Shown here in pieces: positions 3,290 to 32,980 of a stretch of 48,406 nucleotides of DNA. This DNA is from a virus, in the IMG/VR virus record IMGVR_UViG_3300005468_000026, positions 1 through 48,406 of that record; one strand, written 5' to 3'. How positions within the stretch are numbered: position 1 is the first letter of the stretch; every line of letters starts with the position of its first letter. The notes under the pieces are model-generated. The model had not been told where the DNA came from. It did not search any database and saw only the letters and a list, made by a program, of their open reading frames with translations. The position numbers and the translations under genes are program-made.

Positions 3290-3856
3290 TTACGCGAGCG
3301 TGACGTTCCGCAGGTCGCGGACCAGCCACTTCCCGCCGTAGGCCGTGATGACCATGTTGTCCCCGATGGCGCCACCGAACGTGGCGACGTCGGTGCTCGT
3401 GCCACCGCCGTTGAAGCCGGTCGTGTTGGTGACCGTGTGCGCCTGTGCGGTCGACGACTGAATCGTCAGCTGCAGCCCGTCCTGATCGACGGCCGGGTCG
3501 GCCAAGGTCATCGCGCCCACACCGGCCTTGTTCAGGAAGATGCGGGTGTCGACGTTGGGGACCGCAATCGCTCCCGAGACGCCGTAGCTGGCGACCGGCG
3601 AGCCGGGCGGCACGTCGGCAAAATCGGCCGCCGGGCCGAAGGCCGCGTTCGCCAGCGTGTTGTGCGCGACGGCGAGCGTGCCGACCTGGCCACGTTCGAC
3701 CTTCACGACCGGCGAGGCCGAGACGTCTTGGACGGTGACGAACTCGCTATCGATCCGGATGAGTTGGCCCACAGCGATGCCGGTCGCGCTCGTCAGTTTG
3801 AGCGACGTATCGGTGGCTGTGATGGCCCCGTTTAGGGTGGTTGCAGTCAAGCTCAT
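3290..3856 (-). CDS. Virion-associated protein, decoration-like (inferred)
   Basis: This 188-residue protein is rich in Ala, Thr, Val and Gly and begins MSLTATTLNGAITATDTSLKL. The N-terminal 80 residues, with the segment GQLIRIDSEFVTVQDV followed by VERGQVGT, resemble a small beta domain common in phage proteins downstream of the capsid gene. Residues about 90-188 look like a second beta domain rich in Thr and Gly. Before the GIY-YIG gene arrived this gene would have followed the coat gene directly, a usual place for decoration or head-fibre proteins. The stop overlaps nothing; the start shares ATGA with the endonuclease stop. Confidence 0.65.
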   Translation of the reverse strand: MSLTATTLNGAITATDTSLKLTSATGIAVGQLIRIDSEFVTVQDVSASPVVKVERGQVGTLAVAHNTLANAAFGPAADFADVPPGSPVASYGVSGAIAVPNVDTRIFLNKAGVGAMTLADPAVDQDGLQLTIQSSTAQAHTVTNTTGFNGGGTSTDVATFGGAIGDNMVITAYGGKWLVRDLRNVTLA

Positions 3857-4677
3857 GTCGTGTTCTCCTCAGAAGTGTTGCACGTGAAACGTCCCGGCGC
3901 GGTGAGGTACTGCGCCTCACCGCGCTTGACGAGCGTCTTGAAGTTCTGCCGACTCAATCCGGTGGCCGTCATGGCCGCGTCGACTGAAGGGTAGGTCACG
4001 CCCTGATAGGCGATAGCCCGCATCTTCCAGAAGGTGCGGCCCTTGCGGGCCTCCGACATCTTGCGGCGCGCTTCGGCGCTCGCTGTTTTCCCCTTGTTCC
4101 ATCCGCCGAATCCGGCCGGGAGCTTGCTCGGCTCGAGATACCGAGCCAGCCCCAGCGCGAGACGACGGCGCATTTGTGTCAACGAGAGGCTGTGTGCCCG
4201 TGCGGCGAGTGCCGCGCTCGGATACGCCACGCCGTTGAATTCGACCGCGCGTTGATTCCAGCCGTGGCCCTTGCGGGTTGCTGACATCTTCGCTTTCACT
4301 TCCGGCGTGTGCTGTTTGCCGGTGATCCAGGGCGTTCGTCCAAGATGTGCGAGGCGCTGCTTCTCTCTCGTCGCCTCGGACATCGGTCCACTTCCCGGAC
4401 CACCTGGACTGAGGTTGTAGCCGTGCGGCACCAGCGAGTTGTAGAGCACGATCGCGGCTTTTTCCATCTCCGCGAGTTGCTTCGCTGATTCCGCACGGCC
4501 CAGTTCCGTCACTTCGAACGCGTCCCACCCGTACTCGCGAATCGCGCTGGCGAGCGGATACGTCAAACCCCTGGCTGCAAACGAGCGGTGATTCGAGAGC
4601 CGCTCGTACAGTGAACGTTTCGTCGACCCGATGTAGTTCTGACCCGTGATCCGATTTGTGATCTTGTAGACAAGCAT
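3853..4677 (-). CDS. GIY-YIG homing endonuclease with NUMOD motifs
   Basis: This 274-residue protein carries the GIY-YIG nuclease domain at residues about 1-90. It has MLVYKITNRITGQNYIGST for the GIY...YIG pair, a conserved Arg in SLYERLSNH, and the catalytic Glu in EMEKAAIVLYN. Three NUMOD3-like DNA-binding motifs follow (SEATREKQRLAHLG, TPEVKAKMSATRKG, SAEARRKMSEARKG), with two NUMOD1/helix-turn-helix-like segments (FNGVAYPSAALAARAHSLS and YQGVTYPSVDAAMTATGLS). An AGGAGG site sits five bases before the ATG. It is a free-standing mobile gene inserted directly after the major capsid gene, which is a typical homing target neighbourhood. It probably cleaves the coat region of related phages lacking it. 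Confidence 0.93.
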   Translation of the reverse strand: MLVYKITNRITGQNYIGSTKRSLYERLSNHRSFAARGLTYPLASAIREYGWDAFEVTELGRAESAKQLAEMEKAAIVLYNSLVPHGYNLSPGGPGSGPMSEATREKQRLAHLGRTPWITGKQHTPEVKAKMSATRKGHGWNQRAVEFNGVAYPSAALAARAHSLSLTQMRRRLALGLARYLEPSKLPAGFGGWNKGKTASAEARRKMSEARKGRTFWKMRAIAYQGVTYPSVDAAMTATGLSRQNFKTLVKRGEAQYLTAPGRFTCNTSEENTT

Positions 4678-4761: not shown

Positions 4762-6090
4762 TTACCCTTGGACTCGACAGGCCAATTCAGGCCGTAAAGT
4801 GCTCCACCCAAAGAGCACGTCGAAGCGGCAAGGAAAGCGGTCGAGATTTATGTCGTAAGCCCTAACCATCCGAATGCTGATCCCGAGCTGCTTGTCCGAC
4901 ACGCGCGCGGCCATGTCGACCCCACGCGGCAGCGGCAGATCGGCCGTCACGAGTGTGAAGGCATCCTTGTGCATCGCGATGCCCTGCGGGCTGACCGCGC
5001 CAGTCGCACCGGCGACCGTGATCGCCGCGTTGTCGGCCGGCGATCCGCTGACGGTCTGACCCGACCCGCTGGTGATGATCGAGGGGCTGATCGAGATCGT
5101 CATGTTGCCGGTCGTGTCGCTGATGGTCTGCGTCACGACGAAGTTCTGCAGCTGGTTGGTCGACTGCCGGCTCTGCGGGTTGATCGAGAAGACGCCGGCC
5201 ATCGTGAACGTGTCGCCGCGGTTGAGCGTCGAGGCGCCCGAGGTCCAGCCGTCGGTGATGATGCTCGATCCGGTCTGCGAGGCCCCGTTGACCAGCGGCG
5301 TGCCGCCGTACGCCCCGTAGGTGTGGGTCTGGACGTTCTGGTCCATCGAGAACTTGAACCCGGCCGTCCGGCCCATCGTGCCGCTGGCGTACTGCTCGGC
5401 GATGGACGATGCCTGCTGGAAGAGGCCCTTCAGGGCATCGACCAGCGTGGCTTCCATCAGCGGGCTGATCGTGACCGACCGCTGTCCGTCGTTGGGCGCC
5501 GCGGAGTTGTTCAACTGCACGCCAGCCAGGAGGTAGGTCAGGAGCGCGTTGGGCGTGGTGCCCGGCGTGCCGACCGCCTGATAGATGTCCACGTAGCGGG
5601 CCATCCCCGCGGCATCGATCCGGTTAGCCACGGCGGCGATCGCAGGGGCAATGAATCGATCCGAGAAGTCATCGATCGACAGCGCCAGGTCCTGCGAACT
5701 GAACGCCAGATCGACCCCAGCCTGGGTATCGAGCGTGACGGGCACCTGCGTTTCGACGGCATCCTGCAGGTCGAGTGCCTGGCCCGTCCTGGTCGTGTAC
5801 CGTGGCGGTTTGCGGACGTTGACGACCGTACCGATCTTCGCCCCGTCGACGCCGAACTTGTCGTCGAACTGGCGATTGACCTGCTTGGTAAACGTCAGGT
5901 TGTTTTCGAGTACGCGCAACGCTTCGCGCGTGATCATCGTGATCGTCAGGAGCGCATTGCCGGCCAGCAGGACGCCGGACGGATGCGACCACTGATTGAG
6001 CAGATGACCGACCAAGAGAGCGATGAGCAGCGCGAGGCCCTGCATCAGGGCTTCTCGCACCGTCCAGCGAGGGAAGGGACGAGCAATCAT
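4762..6090 (-). CDS. Major capsid protein, P22 coat family, with hydrophobic N-terminal extension
   Basis: This is a 442-residue P22 gp5-type coat protein. The family core starts at AGNALLTITMITREALRVL and ends with LRPELACRVQG, with long Thr/Ser/Gly-rich beta regions between. The chosen ATG (6088-6090) has an AGAGG site nine bases upstream. Use of this start puts about 45 residues ahead of the usual family start. They include a charged MIARPFPRW, then a membrane-helix-like GLALLIALLVGHLL. No ATG, GTG or TTG lies at the usual family start itself, where the codons read GCC GGC AAT. The next internal ATG (MITREAL) has no ribosome site and would cut into the core. Coat subunits normally have no hydrophobic leader, so this one is odd. 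Confidence 0.9.
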   Translation of the reverse strand: MIARPFPRWTVREALMQGLALLIALLVGHLLNQWSHPSGVLLAGNALLTITMITREALRVLENNLTFTKQVNRQFDDKFGVDGAKIGTVVNVRKPPRYTTRTGQALDLQDAVETQVPVTLDTQAGVDLAFSSQDLALSIDDFSDRFIAPAIAAVANRIDAAGMARYVDIYQAVGTPGTTPNALLTYLLAGVQLNNSAAPNDGQRSVTISPLMEATLVDALKGLFQQASSIAEQYASGTMGRTAGFKFSMDQNVQTHTYGAYGGTPLVNGASQTGSSIITDGWTSGASTLNRGDTFTMAGVFSINPQSRQSTNQLQNFVVTQTISDTTGNMTISISPSIITSGSGQTVSGSPADNAAITVAGATGAVSPQGIAMHKDAFTLVTADLPLPRGVDMAARVSDKQLGISIRMVRAYDINLDRFPCRFDVLFGWSTLRPELACRVQG

Positions 6091-6289
6091 GGGAACACAC
6101 CTCTTGCCGAGCAAGAAAAGCCACGAGACCATCGCACCGTCTCAGGTGTGTCGCGGCCGTCACGACAAGAACGTCGGCCAAACAGCGAGGACCGAATTGC
6201 AGGTGGCGTCCTCGTTCCCACCGGCACGGGCCGCAGCCCGCGAGGGGTCGTACACGCACGGCGTCAGCGCGCCGCGTAAAGTCGTTCGC

Positions 6290-16349: not shown

Positions 16350-16754
16350 CTATCCGACGCGGTACCGCATCGGTTTGCGGACATGCGCAACGGCGCCGAT
16401 TCTAGCGCCTTCCTGAGCGAAGGCCGAGCCATAGGCGCGGTCAACGCCCTTGGCGAAGGTCAGATTGTTCTCAAGCACACGCAGCGCCTCCTTCGTGATC
16501 ATGTCGATCGTGAGGAAGCGATTCCCTGCCGCGGCTTCGTACGCCTCGAGGCCAGCACGGTCGATCGAATCGGCGAGGGCTTTGACAGTTGCGTCGAGGT
16601 CACGGCGAATGCCAGCGTCGCCAAGGTCAACGATCATCTTGCGGCTTGGCACCCAGAGCGCCTTCTCAGGATCAAGCTCGAGCGCGCCGACACCAACAGC
16701 CGCCGCCCCGATGGCGCCAAAGCCGAGGAGTCTTAGAAACTGTCGTCGTTCCAT
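16350..16754 (-). CDS. Twin-arginine-like signal fused to P22-type coat N-terminal arm
   Basis: This protein has 134 residues. Residues 1-22 are a Tat-like signal: RRQFLRLL followed by the hydrophobic GFGAIGAAAVGVGAL. Next comes a LDPEKALWVPSRK linker, shared with the protein at 21557-22183, and a helical stretch. From AGN at about residue 75 it matches the start of the major capsid protein: MIT-x-EALRVLENNLTF and VRKP-x-RY are the same, and by hand I count 36 identities in 56 positions. It stops (TAG) where the coat protein continues. In the shared 12-residue run EALRVLENNLTF, 9 codons differ between the two genes, so this is an old, selected paralogue. Function is unknown; membrane tethering or export of a coat arm is inferred. 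Confidence 0.85.
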   Translation of the reverse strand: MERRQFLRLLGFGAIGAAAVGVGALELDPEKALWVPSRKMIVDLGDAGIRRDLDATVKALADSIDRAGLEAYEAAAGNRFLTIDMITKEALRVLENNLTFAKGVDRAYGSAFAQEGARIGAVAHVRKPMRYRVG

Positions 16755-16891
16755 CGGTGTGTCGAAGGCGTGACCAGTCTACCGAGGAGCAGCACGTAGA
16801 GGCCAGCGGACACAACCGCCAGGACGATCCAGCGATCGGTCGATGAGGCGAGGCATGCGCGGCCGATGTAGGCGAGCAGGTCGAGCGTCAT
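16733..16891 (-). CDS. 52-residue single-span membrane protein
   Basis: This protein begins MTLDLLAYIGRACLAS and has one strong membrane helix at about residues 21-40 (WIVLAVVSAGLYVLLLGRLV), followed by a short polar tail. It starts in an ATGA overlap with the coat C-tail paralogue and runs 22 bases into the coat N-arm paralogue, so the three are translated together. It could anchor or partner these two exported proteins, or be a small holin-like protein. No family recognised. Confidence 0.65.
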   Translation of the reverse strand: MTLDLLAYIGRACLASSTDRWIVLAVVSAGLYVLLLGRLVTPSTHRWNDDSF

Positions 16892-17124
16892 ACCTGGACG
16901 CGACAGGCGAGCTCCGGCCGGATGGCGGCCGTTCCGTAGAGCACATCGAGACGAGAGACGTGAAGGGTGCCGCTGAACTCGTACTGCCGGAGGAACCTGA
17001 CCGACAGATCCGCGCCAGGCAGTAGGGACGCCTTTTGGCGGACCGGCGGTGCCGGCACGTGCGGCGCCAACGCCGCGGCGAGCGGCGCGACCACCAGGGC
17101 GTAAAGGAAGGATCGACGCTTCAT
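16888..17124 (-). CDS. Signal-bearing paralogue of the coat C-terminal tail
   Basis: This protein has 78 residues. The N-terminus MKRRSFLYALVVAPL is a Tat-like (KRRSFL) or strong Sec-like signal, with hydrophobic residues to about 21 and a Pro/Ala-rich stretch after it. From about residue 36 it parallels the end of the major capsid protein: coat LGISIRMVRAYD versus LSVRFLRQYE here, coat FDVLFG versus LDVLYG, and an identical RPELACRVQ at the end. In that nine-residue run five codons differ. Start overlaps the zinc-ribbon gene by ATGA and stop overlaps the membrane peptide by ATGA. Together with 16350-16754 it looks like the two ends of a coat protein, each given its own export signal. Confidence 0.82.
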   Translation of the reverse strand: MKRRSFLYALVVAPLAAALAPHVPAPPVRQKASLLPGADLSVRFLRQYEFSGTLHVSRLDVLYGTAAIRPELACRVQV

Positions 17125-17372
17125 ACCTGATGTAGAACGCTCGAGACGCCTTTCCACCCACACCAGCACTCCACGGGGAGATCGGCCGTGGGAGTCTCGC
17201 GAGCATTCGACGGGAAGAGAATCGCCCGACCGCATTTCGGGCAATGGGGCGATGTCTGGCTGAGCGCCCGCTCGGGCTGCGATCCATGCGTGGATCCAGG
17301 CGTGGCGACCACGCCAGCGGCGACAGGGACCGCGACCGCATCGAGCCGACGAAACAACTCGCGGCGGTTCAC
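17121..17372 (-). CDS. Tat-like N-terminus plus zinc ribbon
   Basis: This 83-residue protein starts at a GTG that forms GTGA with the previous stop. It begins VNRRELFRRLDAVAVPVAAGVV, an Arg-Arg motif followed by a moderately hydrophobic stretch, which is weaker than the other two RR-FL signals. The C-terminal part has CPKCGRAILFPS and, about 25 residues later, CWCGWKG, a four-Cys zinc ribbon. If exported, a metal-binding, prefolded domain would be a sensible Tat cargo; this is inference. A cytoplasmic zinc-ribbon protein is the alternative. Confidence 0.65.
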   Translation of the reverse strand: MNRRELFRRLDAVAVPVAAGVVATPGSTHGSQPERALSQTSPHCPKCGRAILFPSNARETPTADLPVECWCGWKGVSSVLHQV

Positions 17373-18366: not shown

Positions 18367-20076
18367 TCAGCGCATCCACCCAAGTCCGCTCCGCTCGCCC
18401 ATGTCGTAGATGAGCGTTTCCTGCGGTTCGACGGGCAGCGGCTCGGTGATCATCCGCGACAAGCCGGAACGTACCAAGTAGCGCGTGTTGTGCACCACCG
18501 CGCCATTGTGAACGACGAAGGCTGACGCGCCAGGAACTGTGAGGCAATAGACATCAGCCCGTCCGGCTGGCACGACCGACACGCACGAGAGCACCGCAGC
18601 GTCTCGAGCAGGACTTTGTCGGATGGTAACGACTCGCCACAAAACTGCGGCCGCAGCCCAAGCACACGCGTTCCTCATTGTCCACACCAGACGCGCGACG
18701 AGCGGCGGCCCGGCAGTTCGCTGAGCAGAATTTTGTCTGGTTGTTGTCGACCCCGTTGAATCGCTTGCCGCAACTGGAATGCGCGCACACCATCGGCCGA
18801 CGCTTATGAAGAAGCCTCTGAGTCGCCTGATAGTGCTTCTGGTGCCAGCGCCGGCCGTTGGCGCTGCCATGCCAGACGATCGCAGCGGCGCGGGCCGCTG
18901 CGGGAAATGGTCGCTTGGGACGGCTGCGCTGGTGGTCGGAAATATGTTTCGATCCCAGTTTGGCCTCCAAGTTCCAGACGTTGTTGTTGGCGGAATTCCC
19001 ATCCTTGTGATGCACGTGATGTCCGAATGGAATCGGTCCGTAGGCGGCCACATAGACGGCCTGATGGAGAGAGACGCCACCACGGCGGAAATAGCGTCCG
19101 CACAGGTGATAGCGAACGCCTTGGAACATCTGGCAGGTCGCTGAAAGTACCTGTACAAAAAGCGTTTCCATTGGACGCGCTGCGTTATCCCATTATAAAC
19201 GGGCGCACCCCTAAGGGCATCAGCTCGGACCCAGCCAGTCGGCGTTAAGAACGGATGGTCTGGCGTGCACGTCACGACGCTTCCGTCGCTGAAGCGCACA
19301 TCCACAATCGGCGAGTTGATGATTGTCCGACGCGCCCCAAGGAATGTCGCCCATACCCCTTCCCTGGTCAAAATCCGGCCGCGAGTCCCTACGAGACTCG
19401 CGATCGGCACGATGCCGTCAGGCGTCACGACACCGGTGCTTCCAATGACACACGCATCGAGGAGGTGATCATTCGATTTTACGACCCGATGCTTGTCATC
19501 GCGCCGGTAGAGCCGAAACTCCGCGAACCACGCTTGGCAGCTCGCGAAGACCTTGAGCTTGCCTTCGCTCAGCCGATTGTAGACGTCGTAGATGCCGGTC
19601 TCGACGGCCTTGTCTGGCAGCTCGAGGTTGAACCCGTGCCGACGGTAGAGCGAGATGAACTGCGTCCGGTCCTCGTCGATGACGTCGGCCGCATCACCCA
19701 CACCTGGGATCCACGCGCCGCGTGCGCGCAGCGCCTCGGCGTGTACGGCGATCTCAGCCTGGGCCCGTTTGTAGACGCTGTAGATGTAGAGCACCTGGCT
19801 CTCGGCATCGAGCGCGCCCCAGACGGCCGCCGTCGTGCCCGAGAGCGCCGTGTCCAAGCCGAAACCGCGGCGGTAGTGCTTGGGGATCGGGAAGTCCTCG
19901 ACGCGGACGCCGCTCTCAGGGAACGGGTAGATCGCGCCGGACCCCAGCTGCGGGATGCCGCGCGTGCGCGCGTCGAGCTGATACTTCGGGTACGACGCGG
20001 CGAGCTCGGCCTTGGCCGTCTCATCCAGATGCGGCGCCGAGTCTTGCCACGTCGCGCCGATGACAAGCCTACTCAC
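18367..20076 (-). CDS. Terminase large subunit, nuclease domain, interrupted by an intein
   Basis: This 569-residue frame starts at GTG with GGAAGGAG five bases upstream. Extein residues 1-208 and 531-569 form the RNase H-like packaging nuclease. They include VIGATWQDSAPHLDE, DARTRGIPQLGSGAIYP, the metal-binding Asp in GFGLDTALSG, and DHLLDA joined after splicing to TRYLVRSGL. The intein sits exactly inside this last nuclease motif, so no active nuclease forms without splicing. The ATPase half is a separate gene (20315-21115) with another gene between them. Both halves are needed for headful packaging at the portal. Confidence 0.88.
   Translation of the reverse strand: MSRLVIGATWQDSAPHLDETAKAELAASYPKYQLDARTRGIPQLGSGAIYPFPESGVRVEDFPIPKHYRRGFGLDTALSGTTAAVWGALDAESQVLYIYSVYKRAQAEIAVHAEALRARGAWIPGVGDAADVIDEDRTQFISLYRRHGFNLELPDKAVETGIYDVYNRLSEGKLKVFASCQAWFAEFRLYRRDDKHRVVKSNDHLLDACVIGSTGVVTPDGIVPIASLVGTRGRILTREGVWATFLGARRTIINSPIVDVRFSDGSVVTCTPDHPFLTPTGWVRADALRGAPVYNGITQRVQWKRFLYRYFQRPARCSKAFAITCADAISAVVASLSIRPSMWPPTDRFHSDITCITRMGIPPTTTSGTWRPNWDRNIFPTTSAAVPSDHFPQRPAPLRSSGMAAPTAGAGTRSTIRRLRGFFISVGRWCARIPVAASDSTGSTTTRQNSAQRTAGPPLVARLVWTMRNACAWAAAAVLWRVVTIRQSPARDAAVLSCVSVVPAGRADVYCLTVPGASAFVVHNGAVVHNTRYLVRSGLSRMITEPLPVEPQETLIYDMGERSGLGWMR
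18487..19452 (-). other. Intein in terminase nuclease gene (322 codons)
   Basis: The frame shows all four splicing blocks. Block A starts with Cys (CVIGSTGVVTPDG), block B has TPDHPFLTPTGWV, block F is DVYCLTVPGASAF, and block G is NGAVVHN, followed by Thr as the first extein residue. Cys1, the block B His, the penultimate His and the final Asn are all present, so splicing chemistry looks intact. Between blocks B and F the same-frame peptide is Arg/Pro/Ser-rich and shows no domain, because a separate HNH gene occupies the other frame there. Confidence 0.87.
18554..19171 (-). CDS. HNH homing endonuclease nested out of frame inside the intein
   Basis: This 205-residue protein is encoded in a different frame from the intein that surrounds it. 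It has an AP2/HNH-style N-terminus (VRYHLCGRYFRRGGVSLHQAVY). The HNH core reads HHVHHKDGNSANNNVWNLEA. Two C4 zinc modules follow (CAHSSCGKRF...FCSANC and CLGCGRSF...CSRRC). Its frame has a TAA eight codons before the ATG and ends just ahead of intein block F. No strong ribosome site is visible. It is a typical phage homing enzyme that probably mobilises the intein; nesting out of frame is unusual. Confidence 0.85.
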   Translation of the reverse strand: METLFVQVLSATCQMFQGVRYHLCGRYFRRGGVSLHQAVYVAAYGPIPFGHHVHHKDGNSANNNVWNLEAKLGSKHISDHQRSRPKRPFPAAARAAAIVWHGSANGRRWHQKHYQATQRLLHKRRPMVCAHSSCGKRFNGVDNNQTKFCSANCRAAARRASGVDNEERVCLGCGRSFVASRYHPTKSCSRRCGALVRVGRASRTG

Positions 20077-20318
20077 GCGTGCTCCTTCCAGACCGGCGCG
20101 GGACACAGGCCGCGGCCAGCGACCGAGGCGAGTGCGCGGCGCGGCGGGACCGCCGGCGTCGCGGAGGTCGTCGGCACGTCTTCGCCGTTCGGTTCGATCT
20201 TCCGATACAGCGTCACGTAGCCACTCTTAATGGCCGCAACCGGAATGACGCGCGCCTCGCGACGCCCATCGAGGCGCTCGAGCAGAATGACGGTCTCAAT
20301 CGGTGTCTTCAGCGTCAC
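20073..20318 (-). CDS. 81-residue protein inserted between the two terminase halves
   Basis: The protein begins VTLKTPIETVILLERLDG from a GTG in GTGA overlap with the ATPase stop. It ends in GTGA overlap with the nuclease start. Residues 1-40 look like a small beta domain (REARVIPVAAIKSGYVTLYRK); the rest is Pro/Ala-rich. It has no similarity I can see to the terminase linker it replaces. It could bridge the two terminase proteins, or be a remnant of the event that split the gene. Confidence 0.68.
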   Translation of the reverse strand: MTLKTPIETVILLERLDGRREARVIPVAAIKSGYVTLYRKIEPNGEDVPTTSATPAVPPRRALASVAGRGLCPAPVWKEHA

Positions 20319-21240: not shown

Positions 21241-21563
21241 CGGTCCCGCGTCCAATTCTGGACGAGATCGCAGACGTCTGGGCCAGACGCCGACGGCAGG
21301 CAGAGGATCAGATCCGCCGGCGCCGACCTGGTCACCGTGATGCGTCGGTCACTCAGGTCCTCGATGAGCCAGTTCGTCGACGGACCTTCTGAGGTGTACG
21401 CCCTGACCACCGGCCTCGGGCCGGAGCGCGCGGCGCCGTGGACAATCGCCACATCACGGCTGACCGACATCCACTCCGAGTAGACCGACCAGCCGACACT
21501 GCCAATGACCAGGAGGCCGATGACTAAAAGGAGGACGCTGACCTGGACGTCACGGCTCACCAT
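21237..21563 (-). CDS. N-terminally anchored membrane protein
   Basis: This protein of up to 108 residues has a membrane helix at about residues 8-27 (VSVLLLVIGLLVIGSVGW). A soluble domain with RSGPRPVVRAYT and SDRRITVTRSAPADLILC follows. The ATG at 21563 gives a 7-base overlap with the previous gene; the in-frame GTG at 21560 would give the usual GTGA overlap and only drops one residue. Probably inner membrane with the soluble part outside; function unknown. Confidence 0.68.
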   Translation of the reverse strand: MVSRDVQVSVLLLVIGLLVIGSVGWSVYSEWMSVSRDVAIVHGAARSGPRPVVRAYTSEGPSTNWLIEDLSDRRITVTRSAPADLILCLPSASGPDVCDLVQNWTRDR

Positions 21564-22183
21564 GTCCAGTCCTCGTCATCCTCGATGATGTACGGGTCGC
21601 GCTCGTCGCGGATGTGGTATCGCTCCCGTCTCGCCGCGGTCTCTTGGAGGTGCCTGGTGAGCGTCCGTTCCTTGATTGCCGCGAGGTTCGGGGCATCTGT
21701 CGCGTTGAAGTTCCGCGCGATCGCGCCGTTGTCGAAGTGGAGCTCAAGGTCGCGAGCCGTGGCAAAGGCAACCGCCCCGTTCTTGACAAACTCGGCCTCG
21801 GACATCATCACGATCTGCTCAATTGTCCGGCCTCGATCTGCTGCCGCGGCTTCCGTGGCATCGTCCATCCCCGTCACGCGCCCCGACGCATCGAGTAGAT
21901 AGAGTGGCGCCGCGTCCTTGAACTTCACCCGAACCATGTGCTGTCCGGTCAGTTGAGACACCTCTTGCGGCGTCGCCTGGCGGATGTTCTTGATGGCAAT
22001 CTTGTCGTCCGGGATGAAGAACGTCTTTGTGCCGGGCGTCCAGAGCTTCCGCTCCGGGTCGAGCAGGCTGGCGCCGGCGCCGTCGAGTTGCTCGAGGTCG
22101 AGGAGGGAGCCTGCCGTCGCGGCCGCGGCGACCGCCGCGCCGCCGACAAAGAGCCGTTTGAGAAACGCGCGCCGTCCAAACAT
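21557..22183 (-). CDS. Protein with full twin-arginine signal and LDPERxLW linker
   Basis: This 208-residue protein begins MFGRRAFLKRLFVGG, the complete RRxFLK consensus. A hydrophobic, Ala-rich stretch (AAVAAAATAGSLL) follows. After a spacer comes LLDPERKLWTPGTKTFFIP, closely matching LDPEKALWVPSRK in the coat N-arm paralogue at 16350-16754. The remaining 140 residues are a soluble, mostly helical domain (RTIEQIVMMSEAEFVKNGAV) with an acidic end. The AxA-like TAG/GSL region could be a cleavage site. I do not recognise the C-terminal domain. It is the best Tat substrate candidate in the window. Confidence 0.8.
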   Translation of the reverse strand: MFGRRAFLKRLFVGGAAVAAAATAGSLLDLEQLDGAGASLLDPERKLWTPGTKTFFIPDDKIAIKNIRQATPQEVSQLTGQHMVRVKFKDAAPLYLLDASGRVTGMDDATEAAAADRGRTIEQIVMMSEAEFVKNGAVAFATARDLELHFDNGAIARNFNATDAPNLAAIKERTLTRHLQETAARRERYHIRDERDPYIIEDDEDWTW

Positions 22184-22196
22184 ATTGGTTCGCCCT

Positions 22197-22898
22197 CTAG
22201 GATACCGCTGTCGTCATCCTGTCGGCCAATTCTCGTCGAATGCGGTCGCGCTCGGGCTGACGTGCCGAGTAGAGAGCGCGGTCGCGCGTCATGGCCTCGA
22301 CGTCATGCGGGTAGTACATCGTCCGGCCATCACGCTGGACGGGATGCCCGGGCGGGTGGTCAACGAGGTGCAAATGCTCCATGACGACATCTTCGAGATA
22401 CACGCGCCGCTCGGCCGGCACGATGTCAAAGATGGTGTCGTCGATCGCATACCGCTGGTACGGCACCGGCCAGGGCACCGCGTCCATGACCAGCCGACTC
22501 GTGACCGGGTAGCAGGCCAGCGCGCGACCGAAGATCAGGTCGTTTGGGTAGATGAGCACGACATCGTCGGGATACTTCTGCAGTTCGGCCTTGAACCGAA
22601 GATCCCAATCCTTCGTCCGGCAGATCGTGTCATCGCCGCTCAGGAAGATGTACGGCGCCGTTGATTGCTGGTAGCAGAGTTCGGTCAGCTCGTTCACACT
22701 GAACGCTCCGTGCGGCACAAAAATCTCACGGACGGCGCCCCAGCGCGCGCGCTCGAGCGTGTCGACGCGCTCCTCCACGGTCAGTGAGACTTCGACGCCC
22801 AGGGGGTTCACGCAGTGCGTATGGAGTGACTCGAGCCAGCGTCTCAGATCGTCAGGCCGACAGGATGGGCAGAGGAGCGAAAGCCAGGGCGCCGTCAT
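22197..22898 (-). CDS. Glycosyltransferase, GT-A fold (second copy type)
   Basis: This 233-residue protein starts at the ATG in ATGA overlap with the previous gene (MTAPWLSLLCPSCRPDDL). Residues about 75-95 hold the donor-binding motif YIFLSGDDTICRTKDWD. Further on are YPNDLIFGRALACYPVTSR and AIDDTIFDIVP, the second acidic motif, and a His-rich end (MEHLHLVDHPPGH). It differs strongly from the transferase at 2554-3282, so the phage has two unrelated ones. The acceptor is unknown; location among packaging genes suggests virion or DNA decoration. Confidence 0.78.
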   Translation of the reverse strand: MTAPWLSLLCPSCRPDDLRRWLESLHTHCVNPLGVEVSLTVEERVDTLERARWGAVREIFVPHGAFSVNELTELCYQQSTAPYIFLSGDDTICRTKDWDLRFKAELQKYPDDVVLIYPNDLIFGRALACYPVTSRLVMDAVPWPVPYQRYAIDDTIFDIVPAERRVYLEDVVMEHLHLVDHPPGHPVQRDGRTMYYPHDVEAMTRDRALYSARQPERDRIRRELADRMTTAVS

Positions 22899-23089
22899 TC
22901 GGTGTAGAGCCACGGTTCGGTCTCTTCGCGCCGATGGCGCCAGACCTGGACGTAGGCCCACCCAACGCGCATCACGAGGGCAGCGAACGGACCGCCGTTG
23001 CCACACAGGACCAACCCGAAGCAATCCCACATCCAGCCGACCTCGACGTGCCAGCCGGGTTTCGACAGATCGGGCCAGCAGCGCATCAT
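22895..23089 (-). CDS. 64-residue Trp/Cys-rich protein
   Basis: The start MMRCWPDLSKPGWHVEVGW is set by a TGATG junction with the preceding gene, and the stop by ATGA with the glycosyltransferase. It is rich in Trp, Val and Gly and could be peripheral to the membrane (FGLVLCGNGGPFAALVM). No family recognised. Confidence 0.6.
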   Translation of the reverse strand: MMRCWPDLSKPGWHVEVGWMWDCFGLVLCGNGGPFAALVMRVGWAYVQVWRHRREETEPWLYTE

Positions 23090-32533: not shown

Positions 32534-32805
32534 TTCAACCGCTCCACGTCTTTGAGCGGTTGTCCGCTGAGCGCCGCCATGACCCGCTCTGGCGTTGGTT
32601 GGTGCGCGGCGTGCATCAGCCGGCCGACCAAGTCGTCGACGGTCAGTGTGAAGGTGTCGTGATGCTCTTTCGACAGATGCGCGAGTTGGCGCGCGAAGAG
32701 CGTGTAGGCCACCGATGCCCGGCACATGCAACAGACGTTCAGCGCCTCGGACCACTCGTTGAGTTGGCGCTCGAACAGATCGAGCTGCCGGCCAGAGTCA
32801 CACAT
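32530..32805 (-). CDS. 91-residue helical protein after TatA
   Basis: The protein begins MCDSGRQLDLFERQLNEWSE, is helical and has CCMCRA in the middle. The last half reads FTLTVDDLVGRLMHAAHQPTPERVMAAL. It overlaps the TatA gene by eight bases. Unknown function; close coupling to TatA makes it a candidate partner. Confidence 0.66.
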   Translation of the reverse strand: MCDSGRQLDLFERQLNEWSEALNVCCMCRASVAYTLFARQLAHLSKEHHDTFTLTVDDLVGRLMHAAHQPTPERVMAALSGQPLKDVERLK

Positions 32806-32980
32806 GGCGGTCGCCGTCCTGGTCGTCGGTCCAGCCTTTGGTGAGTTCCTTGCCGGCATTGCGGAACTCCCGGATCGATTCGCCGATCGACTTGCCGAGC
32901 TTTGGCAGTTGCCGCGGCCCGAACAGCAGCACCGCAATGATCGCGATGATGATGATCTCCGGCATGCCCAATCCCATCAT
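32798..32980 (-). CDS. tatA: TatA/E-type twin-arginine translocase subunit
   Basis: This is a complete 60-residue TatA. It has a short N-terminus with an acidic residue at the start of the helix (GMPEIIIIAIIAVLLFGP), the FGP hinge, then the amphipathic helix LPKLGKSIGESIREFRNAGKEL and a short acidic tail. AAAGGA lies about nine bases before the ATG. TatA forms the pore of the host Tat system with TatB and TatC; neither is seen here, so it would have to work with the host's. A bacterial gene caught by a phage is the likely origin. Holin-like use of the same helix is an alternative. Confidence 0.92.
   Translation of the reverse strand: MMGLGMPEIIIIAIIAVLLFGPRQLPKLGKSIGESIREFRNAGKELTKGWTDDQDGDRHV

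Follow-up and report, generated by a model that had tools for sequence, protein, structure and literature searches.

Why do two phage proteins with different bodies begin with the same N-terminus? The preliminary description of this window (by which we mean the whole stretch of 48,406 nucleotides of viral DNA that was analysed) had reported a two-part head, RRxFL followed by LDPExxLW, on two of its proteins. A six-frame scan confirmed this. Both genes are on the minus strand, and a regular expression for the LDPE-type plus LW pattern finds 2 sites in the window, in 21557-22183 and 16350-16754 only. The first gene codes for a protein of 208 aa (MFGRRAFLKRLFVGG...SLLDPERKLWTPGTKTFFIP), the second for a protein of 134 aa (MERRQFLRLLGFG...LELDPEKALWVPS). 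As judged from sequence, the head belongs to a phage Tat-type cassette that is loaded with pieces of capsid protein. The following features of the window are relevant here:

21557-22183, minus strand: head protein of the initial observation, with an RRAFLK signal, a long spacer, LLDPERKLWTPGTKTFFIP and a 150-aa body without recognised relatives.
17121-17372, minus strand: zinc-ribbon protein with an RR start (GTG start codon, VNRRELFRRL...CPKCG...CWCG); it opens a run of four overlapping genes.
16888-17124, minus strand: RRSFL signal without LDPE motif, followed by a C-terminal piece of a P22-like coat protein (MKRRSFLYALVV...).
16733-16891, minus strand: 52-aa protein with one hydrophobic stretch, sequence read directly; overlaps the stop of 16888-17124 by ATGA.
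16350-16754, minus strand: head protein with a coat N-arm; RRQFL signal, LDPEKALWVPS, a weakly coat-like helix stretch, then the N-arm.
4762-6132, minus strand: the phage's own P22-like major capsid protein (PHROG 283, 2.9e-81), with a hydrophobic N-terminal extension before the N-arm.
32798-32980, minus strand: phage TatA (PF02416, E 1.9e-19, 65 bits vs a cut-off of 21).

From 17372 to 16350 four genes overlap head to tail, as read from the sequence. The first of them encodes the zinc-ribbon protein, for which an Arg-Arg start had already been described and which is likewise real. RR zinc-ribbon proteins similar to it are present in G010, G040 and G032, and RR-start zinc-ribbon proteins are seen in other head phages (L165:5982-6230, L160:8631-8900 and L168:3772-4203); the last one has a weak capsid C-terminal match (E 0.009) followed by the zinc ribbon. 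The stop of the window's zinc-ribbon gene shares ATGA with the start of 16888-17124, a third RR protein that was absent from the preliminary description. Its body matches PHROG 283 (7e-5) and positions 375-414 of a P22-like coat HMM (E 1.8e-9). The body of 16350-16754 matches the same HMM with E 1.3e-21 in the N-arm (6-64) and weakly in the stretch 111-132, and the order of these pieces is reversed compared to the coat protein.

In the gene 21557-22183 the head model matches 22010-22081 (E 4.8e-10). The spacing from RR to LW is approximately 43 residues and thereby unusually long; it is 22 in 55 of 108 heads. Whole-protein queries of INPHARED, IMG/VR, PHROGs and Pfam gave no convincing relative of this protein. 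The idea, gained by eye, that its body is similar to a coat P-domain was dropped (shuffle test: z 1.1, p 0.13), and because the test was unsupportive the body is not counted as coat-derived. The neighbouring gene 22197-23030 (minus strand) is glycosyltransferase-like (PHROG 14945, 5.8e-7). The window further contains a large terminase gene with an intein insertion (18367-20106, minus strand; PF14890, E 1.6e-7), overlapped by a frame (18554-19171) that by eye resembles an HNH-type endonuclease. Scaffold and portal genes are located upstream of the coat gene, and a gene for a GIY-YIG type homing endonuclease (3853-4677, minus strand; PHROG 314, 4.7e-38) adjoins it downstream.

The head is not restricted to this phage. 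In IMG/VR, 49 stretches fit a DNA pattern for LDPExxLW.PG: one is an unrelated protein (L028), two contain the motif without RR (L046 and L057, an identical protein), and the rest have an RR signal upstream. A second DNA pattern, LW.PG.K.I.IP, matched 107 stretches. After removal of duplicates and RR-less rows, 108 distinct IMG/VR-derived head proteins were obtained; left out were the chance match L028 and four RR-less sequences (L046, L057, L118 and the second L088 copy). Whole-record head counts cover 50 of the fetched records. These motif searches revealed many viral proteins with the same head and varied tails, as had been predicted.

Alignment of the 108 heads yields the consensus MxRRxFLxxLxxxxAxxxLDPExLLWVPGxKTIFIP, and the sequences downstream have nothing in common. 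All 108 heads have the twin arginine, though the selection let KR through. It is followed by F in 85 and by L in 83 of the 108 heads, and the residue preceding it is N in 51, S in 18 and T in 13. At E<=0.1 the Tat-signal model TIGR01409 matches 43 and the Pfam model TAT_signal (PF10518) 33 of the 108. Directly before LDPE, A or G is found in 38 of 108 heads and E in 15, and the other residues are often unsuitable for signal peptidase; the head appears to be without a clean or consistent signal-peptidase (AxA) site. The LDPE part had been interpreted as a loose linker, which does not hold: it is a strongly conserved motif of about 18 residues with invariant W and P, in which D, L, G, K and P are each conserved in more than 90%, and in L046/L057 and L118 it stands alone, with no signal before it. 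In L118 a stretch resembles, by eye, the N-terminus of the second capsid family described below.

No heads were detected in 50,697 INPHARED records. A genome collection gave 18 pattern matches with a single real case, L146, which is a 6.6 kb contig of an Acidobacteria MAG with a portal gene on the same contig. In the phylum of G047 (a record titled Acidobacteria), 3 of 396 genomes carry heads, the seed being one of them; none do in the phyla of G497 (Halomonas record; 398 genomes) and G496 (Actinomadura record; 396 genomes). This is only a hint of a host link to the phylum of the Acidobacteria record.

Next to the head, the bodies are informative. One head protein (L061) was excluded since its body is shorter than 20 aa, which left 107 bodies. 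Of these, 51 match one of three capsid-protein families, compared to 0 of 2,140 shuffled bodies (20 sets of 107). A P22-like coat HMM built from 33 P22-like coat ORFs matches 22 of the 107 bodies at E<=0.01 and no shuffled one; 27 bodies match a second capsid family, PHROG 14242 (major head protein), and two match a third, PHROG 133/4523 (head protease and major head protein). The bodies had been called otherwise unrelated, which is correct in so far as they form 54 similarity groups, but not for the 51 that are capsid-protein pieces. Among the 14,159 ORFs of <=260 aa in the collected loci, capsid HMMs match 46 of 116 head ORFs versus 15 of the 14,043 others. Of these 15, six are coat genes, either cut or complete, four are RR proteins that lack the LW motif, and five are RR-less pieces.

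The regions of the P22-like coat that are used are the N-arm (model positions 6-64), the stretch 94-139, the I-domain (245-317) and the C-terminus (340-414), with domain names assigned by analogy with P22, as given in an excerpt of PMC9965877. Bodies listed as joining two pieces in changed order are those of L066 (N-arm, then C-terminus), L054 (C-terminal stretch, then N-arm end) and L016 (94-139, then 251-268). In L146, three consecutive heads carry the C-terminus, the I-domain and the N-arm. The longest coat match in any body covers approximately 67 of the 415 model positions in one stretch, and a complete HK97 fold was not encountered among the bodies.

In all 18 testable genomes the capsid family found behind the head is the genome's own (11 P22-like, 5 of the second and 2 of the third family; three of the heads at E 0.01 to 0.05), and no mismatch was observed; the match is less independent for the second and third families, because both were found via the bodies themselves. 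Pieces are approximately 30 to 72% identical to the own coat. The own coat ranks first for 4 of 12 heads in the P22-like family, 2 of 5 in the second and 2 of 2 in the third; its rank lies between 1 and 11 of 19 for the P22-like set and between 1 and 4 of 5 for the second family. We take the capsid pieces to be old rather than fresh copies. Head genes of P22-like genomes are mostly located among the terminase and portal genes, and in the five second-family genomes the heads are not close to the capsid gene.

The other 56 of the 107 bodies, including that of 21557-22183, are without recognised capsid origin and form small groups or are unique. One body, in G040, resembles another protein of the same phage (E 0.004) and has a weak match to a head-tail adaptor (PHROG 637). 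Structure predictions for the second capsid family (mean pLDDT 38) and the L020 group (mean pLDDT 54) were too weak for use. In L167 (10825-11103) an RR-signal protein has a body that looks, by eye, like a tail-fibre tip (GGAHTHTISG); it has no family match.

If the signal is of the Tat type, a link to the Tat machinery could be visible in the phage genomes. Heads had been predicted to be enriched in genomes that carry TatA, which is supported with a qualification. TatA is encoded in only 3 of 49 head-bearing records, and most head phages would therefore need the TatA of the host. A search of IMG/VR with a TatA alignment yielded six loci, two of which probably belong to the same phage, and all six carry heads. 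The motif search had already turned up five of them; the remaining one, L347, has the variant LDPEKAPW. As the TatA query came from three head phages, other phage TatA lineages would be missed. In 50 control records (48 picked by portal protein, 2 by coat protein) neither TatA (0/50) nor heads (0/50) were found, and the window TatA as query matches 5 of 50,697 INPHARED records. In the window, TatA lies away from the heads. In G030, G019 and L343 the TatA gene overlaps a head gene, and in L345 a small gene separates TatA from a series of five RR proteins, which extends to the terminase and includes two proteins with coat pieces. The head protein of L347 (6759-6929 onward) carries a coat N-arm that is interrupted by an in-frame TAG, beyond which the N-arm-like frame continues; the TAG may reflect either decay or TAG recoding.

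The coat protein itself can carry a hydrophobic segment. Using a best 17-residue mean hydropathy of >2.1 as criterion, an in-frame hydrophobic stretch before the N-arm was found in 4 of 38 P22-like coat rows (some records are present twice), namely in the window, L018, L109 and G019. All four carry heads, and TatA is present in three. The window has no ATG, GTG or TTG between the stretch and the N-arm, and therefore at least part of the stretch must be translated with the coat; for the other three a start codon downstream of the stretch is also possible. A second sample of 29 coat ORFs with an intact N-arm contains three with the extension: L348, which is a near twin of the window (99.9% over 11,132 nt), again G019, and L352, an 8.2 kb record in which a head is not in view. 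Most head phages lack the extension, as do the TatA phages G030 and G1324.

At the level of sequence, we regard it as established that the head is conserved, that about half of the bodies derive from capsid proteins and match the own family, that there is purifying selection, as described below, and that TatA is linked to the heads. The RR signal and the LDPExLLWVPGxKTIFIP motif are reused before many bodies, and the commonest cargo consists of short segments (N-arm, I-domain, C-terminus) from the major capsid protein of the same phage. Some phages add their own TatA, in places from overlapping genes. The signal would bring the proteins to the Tat translocon, and hence into or beyond the cytoplasmic membrane. 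Their most likely role would be that of membrane-placed capsid mimics, which bind coat or scaffold via real coat contacts and place or tune phage-head assembly at the membrane. That the cassette is Tat-targeted and acts in this way is quite possible, if short of probable.

The P22 N-arm binds scaffolding protein, according to an excerpt of PMC9965877, and the I-domain piece corresponds to a region solved alone in 6mnt, the isolated I-domain having its own structure; the pieces could therefore bind assembly partners alone. For T4, the part of PMC9958956 on prohead assembly places its beginning on the inner membrane. An assembly role at the membrane is likewise suggested by the hydrophobic segment on the coat of four head phages, and by head genes being placed among those for terminase and portal in P22-like genomes. 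Against such a role, fully exported fragments could not reach cytoplasmic phage heads unless they are kept anchored. Also speaking against the proposal are the apparent lack of a clean cleavage site, the low number of head records with TatA (3 of 49), the 56 bodies of no recognised capsid origin, the pieces for which the own coat does not rank first, the patchy occurrence of the coat extension and the distance of second-family heads from the capsid gene.

The variety of the bodies might also reflect an evolvable export leader that is fused to pieces of phage genes by illegitimate recombination, the capsid origin being functionally meaningless. The exchange of bodies would be in line with this: grouping the 107 bodies by similarity gives 54 groups at E<1e-3, of which 46 are singletons, and 36 groups at E<0.1, and among the 44 pairs of heads with >=80% identity the bodies belong to different groups in 21. 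L088 contains an exact 128-nt head repeat (1132-1259 and 1344-1471) with two different continuations, for which an assembly artefact is possible, and the G040 body has the relative in its own genome mentioned above. The claim that a cassette moves between proteins therefore stands for the Tat-type signal plus motif on 54 body groups, but the LDPE part of it is no linker. Three capsid families are sampled repeatedly, always the own one (18/18) and from genes that are usually kilobases distant, which together with the selection on the bodies makes meaningless sampling rather unlikely. In independent pairs of related head proteins the pooled pN/pS is 0.24 for heads and 0.44 for bodies (for the body of L020 vs L037, pS is 0.30 and pN 0.032); by this measure heads and bodies are under purifying selection. 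These values, well below 1, the start-stop overlaps and the conserved twin arginine also largely refute the reading as debris or pseudogenes of capsid duplications, which we find hardly credible although the pieces are short and the L347 head has its in-frame TAG in the N-arm.

Exported pieces could alternatively serve as decoys: displayed in the envelope, they might titrate a capsid-recognising factor of the host or of a rival, or exclude related phages (superinfection exclusion). Capsid proteins trigger bacterial immunity, as described in the excerpts of PMC9712102 for CapRel and of PMC11312562 for a TIR system. Decoys would also fit L146, which presents the C-terminus, I-domain and N-arm of one capsid on separate proteins, and the occurrence of heads with three capsid families and in 0 of 50 portal relatives, as is expected of a host-linked trait. 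The capsid sensors CapRel and the TIR system are cytoplasmic, and export would therefore take the decoy away from them. The bodies gave no match to defence families except for a single weak one to a PADLOC model (1 of 108, E 0.0063), and we consider the decoy role somewhat unlikely. A further explanation is that the N-terminus, instead of being a Tat signal, sorts the proteins to the virion or prohead, and here LDPExLLWVPG being as conserved as RR, and its signal-free occurrence in L046/L057 and L118, would be in favour. T4 has such a capsid-targeting sequence on its internal proteins, according to the portion of PMC9958956 on these proteins. The matches of 43 of 108 heads to a Tat model and the overlaps of TatA with head genes argue against sorting. 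The Tat consensus is (S/T)RRxFLK-like, with RR and then F and L, and the heads fit it; sorting thus seems quite improbable. Assembly of phage heads at the membrane is preferred to the decoy role, not strongly, because of the P22 and T4 precedents and the position of the head genes.

In the textbook account, the head of a tailed phage is assembled from complete coat proteins, and mostly in the cytoplasm. In the phages described here, which involve three capsid families, pieces of the own coat are found behind one putative export tag, and some phages bring part of the exporter. This would mean either a membrane stage in head assembly or a use of capsid epitopes outside the cytoplasm. We consider it possible, albeit somewhat doubtful, that uncultured tailed phages possess their own Tat export module, some with TatA, and that capsids are built or controlled at the membrane, or epitopes shown across it. 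If true, tailed phages would use the cell envelope in a new way, in some cases with a coat protein that starts with a membrane-type segment, and many unannotated small phage genes would gain a name. Searches of the literature in PMC, which most subscription papers lie outside, gave nothing on Tat-tagged capsid pieces or TatA-bearing phages.

Compared to known systems, the heads are like Tat signal peptides (TIGR01409/PF10518) in RRxFL, the short n-region and the mostly uncharged, A/G-rich stretch, and differ from them in the phage-specific LDPExLLWVPGxKTIFIP, in apparently having no consistent AxA site and in the cargo of capsid pieces. The bodies align to the N-arm, I-domain and C-terminal segments of the P22-like coat protein (PHROG 283, PF11651), but only as short and sometimes reordered pieces on a predicted export head, never as a complete HK97 fold. 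Membrane-bound prohead initiation in T4 (gp20/gp40), as outlined in the section of PMC9958956 on it, is alike in placing head assembly at the inner membrane. It differs, in a comparison by description only, in using portal and chaperone and not Tat-tagged coat pieces. The capsid-targeting sequence of T4 internal proteins is, like the heads, a short tag on different bodies (PMC9958956, in the same limited part). Again by description only, it is no Tat signal and leads into the core of the prohead. Mouse Fv1, a capsid-derived restriction gene, is like the head bodies in that a capsid-derived protein is kept for a new job, and it differs in being a host gene with a product that is not exported.
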